A stretch of 22,329 bases of DNA from a virus. Positions 18,207-22,329 of this stretch are shown piece after piece (position 1 is the first letter of the stretch; every line of letters starts with the position of its first letter). The notes under the pieces were generated by a model. The model did no database searches. It was not told the DNA's origin and worked only from the letters and a program-made list of their open reading frames with translations. A program made the position numbers and the translations under genes. The stretch covers positions 1 through 22,329 of the IMG/VR virus record IMGVR_UViG_3300037063_000010; one strand, written 5' to 3'.

Positions 18207-19796
18207 CTACCTTGTCTTGGCTAAGTACTCGCCACGTGTAGGACCATGGTGTACCTTTGGCAGTTCTCCCCACTGATGCCCACAAGCATTGCAATGTTGC
18301 TGCGCGCCTATACGCACCAAGCACACAGCAGCGCACTGCGGACAACTGGGAGTGCTGGGCGCAGTCGTGGGTTTTATCGTGGTACTGGTTTGTATGCCGA
18401 ACTTCTTCTTAGCCATAGTATCCTCTTCAGGTTTTTGGCCTACGGTGTACTCGCCTTTCATTATTTTGTCCAGCAAGGTAGTAAGCCCGTACAAGCCACC
18501 ACCTTCGCTTAACTCGGTAAGTGCCCACACCAAAGCGTCCATGCGATCAGGACTAGACTGATCTTCTAACTGCGGATCAAAGTCGCACATCTGGTCTTCC
18601 AACGCGGCGAACGTGCCCACGTGGTGCACGCGGCCCTGCTCGTACAACGCGGCAATGGGCTCTGCCCTAACTACCTTGCCGCGCGTAGCGTGCACAGCCT
18701 TAAACGGTATGCCTACGCGCTTGTTTCTAACATTATTCTCTACTAGATCACCACCGTTGTTGACCTCACCAATAACGCGGTCGGCACCGGTGCCGTCATA
18801 GGTTGCCACTACGCGCTCGGCCCACTTATCGGGGCTGGCAGACAAGGTGTTGTCCATTAGCACATAGTAGTGCGGTGGCGTGCGGCTATCACGGCCTGCA
18901 GCTACAATGCCCGTTTCGTCGCTGTTTTTGTTGGCTGTTACGGCAGGGTCAACCCCCACCACTATTCGGTTCAGCGTGCTGGGCAACTGCTCCATGGCTA
19001 CGCGCAGTTCATCAATACGCTTGCGTGTCCACAAGGCGTTAGGGTTGTCGTCCAGCAGTTCAGCGTTAAGTTCTTGGCGGCCCAACCTAGTGTTCTCATA
19101 CTTGGTAATAATCTTAGCTAGGAAGGCACCGGCTAGGTTATGTTTGTTGTCGTAGGTACTACCACGAGTAACTACCGTGGTGGGGTCCTTGATAAGTTCC
19201 TTGATCAGCTTCACCGGCTTAGGTGTGGTGGTTACTACAATCTGCGGGTTGCTACCCAAGCGCAAACCGAAACTAGCCTGATCCCAACTTTCATGGTATC
19301 GCCACGCAGCCACTTCGTCGCCCCACAACTTACTATGCTGCTTACCGCGCAACCGTTCCGGCTCTTCGGCGCTGAACAATAGGCTTACCACACCGTTAGG
19401 CCACACTAACCGTGCCTTACTGGGTTGATACAGCGGCCGCTCGCCCTTAGGACAAATAGCCATGATGCCGCTTTCACCCTCGATCATAATATCGCGAACG
19501 TCACTGCTAGTAGCACCAATCAGGTTTACGGTGCGGTACTCCCCAGTAAGTACCCAGCTACGAATAGTCTCAGCGCCCACACGCGTCTTGCCAAAGCCAC
19601 GGCCTGCCAACACCAGCCAAGTTACCCACACACCACTAGGCAGTACATTGTTAGCTGGTAGGCGCTGGCTGGGCCGTGCCCAAAAATCCCAGTCGTACAC
19701 AAGCGCTTCCGCCTGCTCAGTAGTAAGCTGCGCCATGCGCCGTGCTTGCTCAGCCTTACTAAGCTCCCGAAATTCACCCGCCTTGCTTAATTCCAA
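18207..19796 (-). CDS. terL: Terminase large subunit with C-terminal zinc-ribbon tail
   Basis: This 529-residue protein is the packaging ATPase/nuclease. The Walker A motif GRGFGKT is at residues 65-71 and the Walker B LWGDE at 157-161. The nuclease domain has an acidic cluster: D283 (VGVDPAV), E344 (IGEVNNGGD) and D420 (DRMDALVWAL). The core ends near residue 445, similar to other members. A tail follows: a Thr/Pro linker, then CPQC (485-488) and CNAC (502-505), a zinc ribbon not usual in the family. The start is TTG with CAGGGA 4 nt upstream, and it overlaps the small subunit by 23 nt; an ATG at residue 21 is an alternative. An internal ATG at residue 461 has its own Shine-Dalgarno sequence. 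Confidence 0.94.
   Translation of the reverse strand: MELSKAGEFRELSKAEQARRMAQLTTEQAEALVYDWDFWARPSQRLPANNVLPSGVWVTWLVLAGRGFGKTRVGAETIRSWVLTGEYRTVNLIGATSSDVRDIMIEGESGIMAICPKGERPLYQPSKARLVWPNGVVSLLFSAEEPERLRGKQHSKLWGDEVAAWRYHESWDQASFGLRLGSNPQIVVTTTPKPVKLIKELIKDPTTVVTRGSTYDNKHNLAGAFLAKIITKYENTRLGRQELNAELLDDNPNALWTRKRIDELRVAMEQLPSTLNRIVVGVDPAVTANKNSDETGIVAAGRDSRTPPHYYVLMDNTLSASPDKWAERVVATYDGTGADRVIGEVNNGGDLVENNVRNKRVGIPFKAVHATRGKVVRAEPIAALYEQGRVHHVGTFAALEDQMCDFDPQLEDQSSPDRMDALVWALTELSEGGGLYGLTTLLDKIMKGEYTVGQKPEEDTMAKKKFGIQTSTTIKPTTAPSTPSCPQCAAVCLVRIGAQQHCNACGHQWGELPKVHHGPTRGEYLAKTR
18421..18426 (-). promoter_or_regulatory. Internal ribosome binding site within terL
   Basis: On the minus strand AGAGGA lies 4 nt before an in-frame ATG at 18414-18416 (residue 461). 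Initiation here would give a separate 69-residue protein beginning MAKKKFG and carrying only the zinc ribbon. The spacing is good, but use of this site is inferred. Confidence 0.4.
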
Positions 19797-20271
19797 GTTT
19801 CCCTGCCAGAATGTCTTTAGCTTCGGCGCCAGCTGTGTAGTCTATCTTACCGTCTAGGTTAAGACTTTCTGGTAGCTTGCCCTCCGTTACCTCACGAATT
19901 TCCTTAGCAGCCGGAGTATCGTGGGTTACGGCGCGGTTTAGCATACCAGCGGCCATGGCCTCAGCCCATGTTACGGGGTGGTCGGGGTCAAACCCTAACT
20001 GACGGGCCATAGCAGCGGGCACCTTGTTGCTAAGCATGGTCACGTATGCCTTGCTGATGACCGTTATGTTGCGGCCCTGTATCCCAGTGGGATTACCACT
20101 TTGCCCCGGCTTAAAAGTGTATGGGTTGCCTTTTTTAAAAGGTTGGCCGCGCCCCTCGTATACTTTCCTAGGCACTTCCTCGGTAAGGTCCAACTTAACC
20201 ACGGCTACTTTCTTCTTACCGTAGGACTTAATCACTACGTTAGGCTCTTGGCCCGGCTTAGGTTTTCTCAT
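19774..20271 (-). CDS. terS: Putative terminase small subunit (DUF5681-like)
   Basis: This 165-residue protein lies directly before the large terminase and overlaps it by 23 nt. Residues 53-63 read FKPGQSGNPTG, the core motif of DUF5681, a domain common in phage proteins in this place. The N-terminus is Lys-rich (RKPKPGQEPNVVIKSYGKKK) and could bind DNA; the C-terminal part has a ATHDTPAAKEI-like helix and EGKLPESLNLDGKID, similar to the end of many small subunits. It is expected to recognise the packaging start site and recruit TerL. The start is the first ATG; an in-frame TGA lies two codons upstream. The Shine-Dalgarno sequence is weak. Confidence 0.72.
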   Translation of the reverse strand: MRKPKPGQEPNVVIKSYGKKKVAVVKLDLTEEVPRKVYEGRGQPFKKGNPYTFKPGQSGNPTGIQGRNITVISKAYVTMLSNKVPAAMARQLGFDPDHPVTWAEAMAAGMLNRAVTHDTPAAKEIREVTEGKLPESLNLDGKIDYTAGAEAKDILAGKLGIKQGG

Positions 20272-21009: not shown

Positions 21010-21180
21010 CTAGTTGCTGAAAAACATACTGGCCACTAAACAAGCCAGCCCTGCCGACAACAGACGGTTGCGCCACGGCCAGGGCTCCAGCCAAGTAACA
21101 GCGTTAATCGTAAACAGTACAAATGCTGCTACCAACAAGATAAGGCGAAAAGGCATACCACCACTGTTGTGTTGGTTCAT
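21010..21180 (-). CDS. Small protein with two membrane segments
   Basis: A 57-codon frame from ATG (21178-21180) to TAG (21010-21012) encodes a 56-residue protein. It has two hydrophobic segments, about residues 12-28 (RLILLVAAFVLFTINAV) and 40-54 (LLSAGLACLVASMFF), separated by a short turn containing WLEPWPWRNR. GAGGAA lies 9 nt before the ATG. Size and topology would fit a class II holin or another small phage membrane protein, but no endolysin gene is adjacent and the position near terminase is not informative. It is the first gene after the repeat-rich region. Confidence 0.62.
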   Translation of the reverse strand: MNQHNSGGMPFRLILLVAAFVLFTINAVTWLEPWPWRNRLLSAGLACLVASMFFSN

Positions 21181-21247
21181 TGTTTAAGGTTCCTCAGTAA
21201 ATTCAAATTTCAGAAAGTGTGCATAGCAGCAAGTGCCCCGACGCCCG

Positions 21248-21273
21248 AAAAAAATCCTATTGCTGCAGAATAG
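21248..21273 (-). terminator. Weak terminator-like element
   Basis: On the minus strand a 5-bp stem (CTATT/AATAG, 21257-21273) with a 7-nt loop is followed after two bases by seven T (21248-21254). The stem is short, so this is only a candidate for ending transcription that enters from the repeat region. A second small perfect hairpin (CGTAG/CTACG, 21288-21300) lies beside it. Confidence 0.35.
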
Positions 21274-21314
21274 TCAGTGGCATGGTTCGTAGCGCCTACG
21301 ACACCGAGTGCCTA

Positions 21315-21440
21315 TGTGTTGTGTGTTGTGTGTTGTGTGTTGTGTGTTGTGTGTTGTGTGTTGTGTGTTGTGTGTTGTGTGTTGTGTGTTGTGTGTTGTG
21401 TGTTGTGTGTTGTGTGTTGTGTGTTGTGTGTTGTGTGTTG
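21315..21440. repeat. Heptamer tandem array A, 18 perfect copies
   Basis: TGTGTTG is repeated 18 times without a single variant base (126 bp). On the minus strand the unit reads CAACACA. Because 7 is not a multiple of 3, every frame on each strand is open and encodes a 7-residue periodic peptide, so the long open frames here are not evidence for a gene. I see no gene start or ribosome binding site in it. Confidence 0.95.
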
Positions 21441-21495
21441 TGACACACTAACAACACCCAAGTTGTGTGTTGTAACAACGAACAACTACGTGTTG
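21441..21495. repeat. Spacer related to the 76-bp repeat (55 bp)
   Basis: This segment, TGACACACTAACAACACCCA followed by more, matches the 76-bp repeat unit at 21594-21745 except for its first bases and the loss of one 21-bp sub-block (TAACACCCAAGTTGTGTGTTG, the 21-bp block is given here as positions 21626-21646 approximately). It separates heptamer arrays A and B. Confidence 0.8.
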
Positions 21496-21593
21496 TGTGT
21501 TGTGTGTTGTGTGTTGTGTGTTGTGTGTTGTGTGTTGTGTGTTGTGTGTTGTGTGTTGTGTGTTGTGTGTTGTGTGTTGTGTGTTGTGTGTTG
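21496..21593. repeat. Heptamer tandem array B, 14 perfect copies
   Basis: The same TGTGTTG unit as in array A is repeated 14 times without variation (98 bp). It directly abuts the 55-bp spacer on the left and the 76-bp tandem repeat on the right. Confidence 0.95.
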
Positions 21594-21745
21594 CGACACA
21601 CTAACAACACCCAAGTTGTGTGTTGTAACACCCAAGTTGTGTGTTGTAACAACGAACAACTACGTGTTGCGACACACTAACAACACCCAAGTTGTGTGTT
21701 GTAACACCCAAGTTGTGTGTTGTAACAACGAACAACTACGTGTTG
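21594..21745. repeat. 76-bp tandem duplication
   Basis: Two identical 76-bp units (21594-21669 and 21670-21745) are followed by the first 8 bases of a third. Each unit contains CGACACACTAACAAC, two copies of a block with ACCCAAGTTGTGTGTTGTAAC, and AACAACGAACAACTACGTG. The unit includes single heptamers and their complements, so it can also fold on itself. Confidence 0.92.
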
Positions 21746-21784
21746 CGACACACGTTCCTCAACAGCCCTGTGTATCACAATGTG

Positions 21785-21808
21785 GTACACATAGTTGTAC
21801 ACATAGTT
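21785..21808. repeat. 12-bp tandem repeat, two copies
   Basis: GTACACATAGTT is repeated twice in a row next to related sequence (GTGTATCACAATGTG). It could be a protein-binding pair, but nothing else supports this. Confidence 0.7.
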
Positions 21809-21858
21809 AGACCAGAACGTAGCACGTGGCTGCACACTGTGCGGCAGTGCAGCGCCGT

Positions 21859-21921
21859 GCCCGGTGTGTACGACTATGCACCGGGCTGCATGGTTACCGG
21901 CAGCCGTGCTACAGGCTGCCG
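21859..21921 (-). other. Two GC-rich hairpins downstream of the edge gene
   Basis: GCCCGGTG (21859-21866) pairs with CACCGGGC (21879-21886), and CGGCAGCC (21898-21905) pairs with GGCTGCCG (21914-21921). Both stems are perfect 8 bp. They follow the stop codon of the gene at the right edge by about 20 nt. There is no T-run on either strand, so they might be a Rho-dependent or structured 3' end, or part of the repeat region's function. Confidence 0.6.
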
Positions 21922-21942
21922 ACACATGCCGCAATGTTCAGG

Positions 21943-22329
21943 TTAGCTTGCCACTTCCTGAATTATAAACGAATCCACATTGTCGGCATCTTGAACAATG
22001 TCGAACGGCGCGCTGGTGTTGGACACAACCGTGTTGTCGGCGAGCGTAAGCGAGATCGTAGCCGTGAACGCTGTACCGTCAATCGGAGGAGCAGGAAGCG
22101 TGCCGGTAGCGATCAAGCCAGTTGAATCGACCGCAAGGTTAAGAATGCCAACCTGGCTCAGAGTCCACGTGGGCACTTGGCCGGGTTGCAGGGTTACTGG
22201 GTTACCGTTCTTGGTGGGTACCGCGGTGAACACGATCCCCTTGCCGTCGTCCTTAATTTGTAGATCCACGTTGTCCTCAATTCGTTGTGGAAATATCTCG
22301 AACCCATTCAACGTGGGCCGAACTATCTC
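21943..22329 (-). CDS. Ig-like beta protein, 5' end outside window
   Basis: The frame stays open to the right edge, giving at least 128 residues. A TTG at 22309-22311 could start a 122-residue form, but it lacks a Shine-Dalgarno sequence, so the true start probably lies outside the window. The sequence has NPVTLQPGQVPTWTLSQVGILNLAVDSTGLIATG and a later TAFTATISLTLADNTVVSN stretch, the pattern of a bacterial Ig-like (Big-type) domain seen in phage virion proteins. The role is unknown; it could be a decoration or minor structural protein. It is the last gene before the repeat-rich gap. Confidence 0.62.
   Translation of the reverse strand, partial: EIVRPTLNGFEIFPQRIEDNVDLQIKDDGKGIVFTAVPTKNGNPVTLQPGQVPTWTLSQVGILNLAVDSTGLIATGTLPAPPIDGTAFTATISLTLADNTVVSNTSAPFDIVQDADNVDSFIIQEVAS

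Follow-up and report, generated by a model that had tools for sequence, protein, structure and literature searches.

The window, i.e., the whole stretch of DNA that was analysed, comprised the entire IMG/VR contig of 22,329 bp. This record is itself a fragment and the phage is therefore only partly seen. All called genes were on the minus strand, and included a candidate small terminase subunit (TerS), the large terminase subunit (TerL), portal and tape-measure proteins, followed by a baseplate hub protein. Upstream of this gene block, two tandem arrays of a heptamer occupied a gene-free gap of 762 bp; the second-largest gap in the window was 137 bp. A gene for an Ig-like protein was the upstream neighbour of the gap, while the late block of packaging and structural genes lay on its other side. 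The distance from the array to the candidate TerS gene was about 1 kb, with four small ORFs in between. The genes and arrays concerned were as follows.

18207–19796, minus strand: terminase large subunit (Terminase_6N/6C).
19774–20271, minus strand: candidate small terminase subunit (DUF5681), assigned from its position before TerL.
21010–21180, minus strand: hydrophobic ORF of 56 aa; reading 3' from the array along the sense strand, this is the first ORF to possess a start codon, and 135 nt separate it from array 1.
21181–21942, minus strand: gene-free gap of 762 bp containing all repeats, bounded by the 56-aa ORF and by the Ig-like ORF, whose end is at 21943.
21315–21440, minus strand: array 1, 18 perfect copies, reading TGTGTTG on the plus strand and CAACACA on the sense (minus) strand.
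21496–21593, minus strand: array 2, 14 perfect copies, within a period-seven run at 21490–21593.

The initial annotation, which was made from the same sequence, claimed 18 and 14 invariant copies of TGTGTTG in an intergenic gap, and this was confirmed. Its coordinates (21315–21593) were correct for the arrays but too short for the repeats as a whole, which run on to about 21755. The uninterrupted period-seven runs measured 128 bp (21315–21442) and 104 bp (21490–21593), and no other G/T-only run in the window exceeded 16 bp. Among 100 first-order Markov sequences matched to the window in composition, the highest number of perfect tandem heptamer copies was two. The sense-strand unit, (CAACACA)n, consists of A and C only, is rich in ACA triplets and offers no self-pairing within the array; the sense RNA was 43% C and free of G over 128 and 104 nt.

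The arrays were accompanied by further repeats and by structured DNA, all within or bordering the same gap.

21441–21495, no strand assigned: spacer of 55 bp between the arrays, composed of TGACACACTAAC, one 21-mer, AACAACGAACAACTAC and GTGTTG.
21588–21753, no strand assigned: higher-order unit of 76 bp, repeated identically 2.2 times and containing inverted repeats as well as 21-mers in pairs (AACACCCAAGTTGTGTGTTGT).
21738–21755, no strand assigned: dyad ACGTGTTGCGACACACGT at the end of the repeat region.
21754–21945, minus strand: interval separating the repeats from the upstream gene, strongly structured (-82.4 kcal/mol, z = -2.6).
21785–21808, no strand assigned: two tandem copies of the 12-mer GTACACATAGTT, with an inverted partner near 21865–21878.

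The spacer was a shorter, diverged copy of the 76-bp unit, having TGACAC in place of CGACAC and one 21-mer rather than two. Five copies of the 21-bp subunit were present within the repeat region, together with dyads, and the 76-bp units contained both dyads and G/T-rich blocks able to pair with A/C blocks. The sense RNA of the repeats folded no better than shuffled sequences, while the plus strand folded as DNA did so somewhat better than shuffles (z = -2.84). The repeat region produced no match when used as a DNA query against the phage database, an Rfam search of the region found no family, and the search for promoter-like sites across the array was negative. The structured noncoding stretch at 21754–21945, with its 12-mers and inverted partner, is a candidate regulatory or replication element.

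The array was also present in a second contig of the same phage, IMGVR_UViG_3300036930_000010 (hereafter L013), which was identical to the window to the right of the array and had 2 SNPs over the approximately 11.6 kb compared to its left. The difference between the two contigs at the array itself was a single segment:

21315–21495, no strand assigned: 181 bp, corresponding to array 1 plus the 55-bp spacer, absent from L013; the breakpoints slide over about 99 bp of homology.

A breakpoint that can slide across such homology is as expected for recombination between the arrays, and the exact difference of 181 bp, set against 2 SNPs, shows that the array changes far faster than the remaining genome. 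The array is therefore real and fast-changing. Comparison of copy number with this near-identical contig, which lacks one array and its spacer, also supported the view in the initial annotation that perfect identity reflects recent expansion or homogenisation.

The absolute copy numbers depend on how the contig was assembled. Under a shortest-path de Bruijn model with k = 127, 18 copies were returned for every true number of at least 18; 18 is therefore the ceiling of such an assembly and may be a minimum. With k = 99, the same model returned 14 copies for the flanks of array 1 at any true number of at least 14. Runs of 104 bp and 98 bp are shorter than a k of 127, and the figure of 14 could be taken at face value only for an assembly that finished at this k. 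The exact match between the 18 copies observed and the output at k = 127 for any longer array would be consistent with the double array, or its length, having been produced by the assembler. However, both the array and the identical 76-bp units recurred in L013; the spacer was not identical to the later 76-bp units, differing by one base and one 21-mer, which argues against a simple assembly duplicate; and the 98-bp run of L013 would, by the same arithmetic, misfit a collapse at k = 99 or 127. An origin through assembly error was accordingly considered extremely improbable, while it should be recognised that assemblers may impose a ceiling on the repeat copy numbers seen in short-read contigs.

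The array was neither inside an open gene frame nor reading into one. The 56-aa ORF that follows has its own ATG, and a TAG cuts the array off from the sole open frame that abuts array 1, such that there is no read-through from one to the other; this agrees with the earlier opinion that the array is unlikely to be translated. That frame, ALGVVGATNHATDYSAAIGFFSGVGALAAMHTF (window 21181–21315, minus strand), follows the TAG, lacks a usual start codon and has the look of a small membrane peptide. For the small ORFs beside the array, this frame included, no PHROG match was significant.

Other viral contigs holding at least three copies of the CAACACA heptamer were examined, of which 19 were independent once duplicates had been merged. 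An ATG opening an ORF of at least 60 aa was found no more than 30 nt downstream in 10 of 19 contigs on the A/C strand, and in none of the 19 on the G/T strand; random positions satisfied the same definition in 10.4% of cases, but the comparison of A/C strand with G/T strand is the safer control. A composition-matched heptamer, CCAACAA, scanned with the same 30-nt limit, gave 8 A/C-sense against 2 G/T-sense cases among 29 arrays, and therefore it seems to be A/C composition that matters, not a single precise word. With a wider A/C heptamer pattern, for which the limit was 40 nt, the A/C sense was favoured by 15 to 1 among 37. When the three scans, which partly overlap, were pooled at 40 nt into 62 independent clusters defined by flanking sequence, with ORFs called mechanically, 25 were associated with a start in the A/C sense only, 1 in the G/T sense only, 2 in both and 34 in neither (sign test, p = 8e-7). 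This bias towards the sense strand at gene starts indicates that such A/C tracts are not randomly placed in other phages. Furthermore, three phage lineages have retained (CAACAAA)n immediately ahead of a start codon. These conserved leaders occurred in L176, L181, L188, L192, L199, L205, L207 and their relatives; in two of the three lineages the leader preceded MAKFIKF-type proteins, and the two of these that were scanned had no PHROG match.

The window arrays resembled the (CAACACA)n, (CAACAAA)n and (CCAACAA)n leaders of other phages in having a period of seven, a composition of A and C only, and the A/C strand as the sense strand. They differed in position, as the nearest start is 135 nt away while the leaders elsewhere lay 0–40 nt from an ATG (the limit of proximity being about 40 nt). 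They were also longer, doubled, and situated beside dyad-rich 76-bp units: leaders in other phages were mostly 21–90 nt long and the other CAACACA tracts 21–58 nt, compared with 126 and 98 nt here.

On the evidence of sequence, the most likely interpretation, put forward tentatively, is that the array serves as, or originated from, a leader on the late-operon mRNA that is rich in A and C and unstructured. The points counted in its favour were orientation relative to the minus strand, position, the sense bias elsewhere, the (CAACAAA)n lineages, fast turnover, and the absence of four copies of the heptamer from 857 sampled genomes, which speaks against a common host repeat. Against it were counted the distance of 135 nt, the abutting frame with no usual start, the unusual length of the arrays, the pairable G/T-rich stretches of the 76-bp units, which are unlike a purely unstructured leader, and the 34 comparison tracts near no start. 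In addition, the other genes of this phage had no A/C-only leaders (A+C of 34–71% over the 35 nt upstream), and several had Shine-Dalgarno-like motifs. The initial annotation drew attention to the strand asymmetry of the array but missed the main clue to it, namely the recurrence of A/C-rich leaders on the sense strand in other phages. That pattern appears to be a better explanation than a packaging signal under conservation, and neutral expansion follows it closely.

As a leader, the arrays would represent a run of simple sequence within the untranslated region that precedes the late gene block, probably transcribed in the sense direction to give an RNA reading (CAACACA)n. Such a leader may help ribosomes to load, in the manner of an ACA-type enhancer and perhaps through ribosomal protein S1, while slippage and recombination between the arrays would keep altering its length, which may itself be important. 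In enteric bacteria, translation is enhanced by ACA motifs that precede the Shine-Dalgarno sequence, and their spacing need not be strict; replacement of four ACA motifs in dppA reduced expression more than 100-fold, and the authors put forward ribosomal protein S1 as a potential partner (PMC3879156). Like the window array, the GcvB target sites of yifK, dppA and gltI described there are ACA-rich and located ahead of coding sequence in the sense orientation. However, these enhancers are short (that of gltI is part of a 27-nt segment) and were shown by mutation, whereas the window contains perfect tandem arrays of 126 and 98 nt, 135 nt from the next start, that are known from sequence. A wider proposition, that phages repeatedly evolve A/C-only heptamer leaders, some of which grow into length-variable arrays that act as a rheostat for late-gene expression, is rather unlikely. 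If the sense-strand bias holds, phage repeats that look like junk or packaging sites would be better read as untranslated leaders, the strand asymmetry of such arrays would be explained, and a simple question follows: does array length set downstream gene expression?

Among the alternatives, it is possible, though less probable than a leader, that a short intergenic seed, A/C-rich or prone to repeats, simply expanded through slippage and unequal recombination within a tolerant gap, and has no present function. Neutral expansion is consistent with the perfection of the copies, the nesting of higher-order duplications and the clean difference of 181 bp between near-identical genomes, as well as with the failure of the sense RNA to fold better than shuffles and the lack of an array in terminase relatives. 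It fits less well with the retention of 762 bp in a module where other gaps do not exceed 137 bp, and with the strong bias of A/C tracts in other phages towards the sense strand at gene starts. A signal acting on transcription would make the G-free, C-containing sense RNA a loading site for termination or antitermination, of the Rho type or otherwise, and its location between the Ig-like gene and the late block would suit this. Yet Rho prefers YC dinucleotides and the unit has none, and a terminator in this place would cost late expression unless overcome; such a role is very unlikely. Equally remote is a length-dependent switch, whereby changes in copy number would shift a frame or promoter spacing and so turn a gene on or off. 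Copy number does differ between the two contigs, but the TAG closes the adjoining frame off from the array, so that the slippage-driven reading-frame switch suggested initially is not supported, and the array has no promoter-like site across it. Leader length might still act as a rheostat. Cyanobacterial STRRs are bacterial heptanucleotide repeats and, as in the window, consist of tandem heptamers of varying number. The same applies to the heptanucleotide repeats of the phage-encoded neuO (PMC13001214); neuO is, however, a phase-variable gene, whereas the window array is untranslated and reads into no gene.

The remaining alternative, a site for packaging or replication in which the small terminase (pac/cos) or a replication initiator would bind an iteron-like array, was raised by the initial annotation and is kept as a rival, but is judged unlikely. 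The array occupies the one large gap of the window, ahead of the candidate TerS gene, and is adjoined by dyads, tandem 12-mers and hairpins; a short way to the right, the two contigs of the phage terminate no more than about 214 bp apart. Two terminase relatives, L036 and L037, have a different cluster of repeats and palindrome just upstream of the ORF before TerL. Their GAGTGGTA repeats (L036, 2710–2850; L037, 3125–3190) are unrelated to the heptamer, and in L036 are followed by a palindrome upstream of that ORF. Over about 90 terminase-relative loci, TRF rows numbered 13 upstream and 5 downstream of TerL. None of these relatives had a heptamer array at the same place, and a conserved packaging signal therefore has no support; members of the family seldom carry repeats ahead of TerL, and those present are of unrelated sequence. 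With TerS, portal and the Ig-like protein as baits, the same gap was found in no relative except the near-identical contig. The same heptamer sits at gene starts in other phages, and no other contig bearing it had a TerL resembling that of the window. The existence of a contig with one array also shows that two are not needed. The further suggestion of a telomere-like end gained no support.

Phage T7 has heptamer arrays, SRL and SRR, with imperfect copies next to its terminal repeats. These are likewise short tandem heptamers in noncoding phage DNA, but they differ in sequence and adjoin terminal repeats, while the window is a genome fragment. The closest precedent for a packaging role would be the pac region of SPP1, where the beginning of the gene for the small terminase is straddled by three sets of direct repeats (PMC4737164). 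SPP1 and SF6 resemble the window in having direct repeats in the small-terminase region, but the SPP1 repeats span promoters and the start of the TerS gene, whereas four small ORFs separate array and TerS here. No paper on such arrays by terminase genes was found in the literature.

Some further observations concern recombination and the host. Outside the array, the heptamer was equally frequent on both strands (3 and 3), and the idea of a Chi-like or RecA hotspot was rejected. There was no HIP1 site in the window, which distinguishes it from cyanobacterial STRRs and removes a sign of a cyanobacterial host. Four copies of the heptamer were present in none of 857 sampled genomes from three groups, a weak test of a host-derived repeat. 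GATC was depleted in the window between 1 and 21300, where 31 sites were observed against 82 expected from base composition; this possibly reflects avoidance of a host restriction or methylation site.
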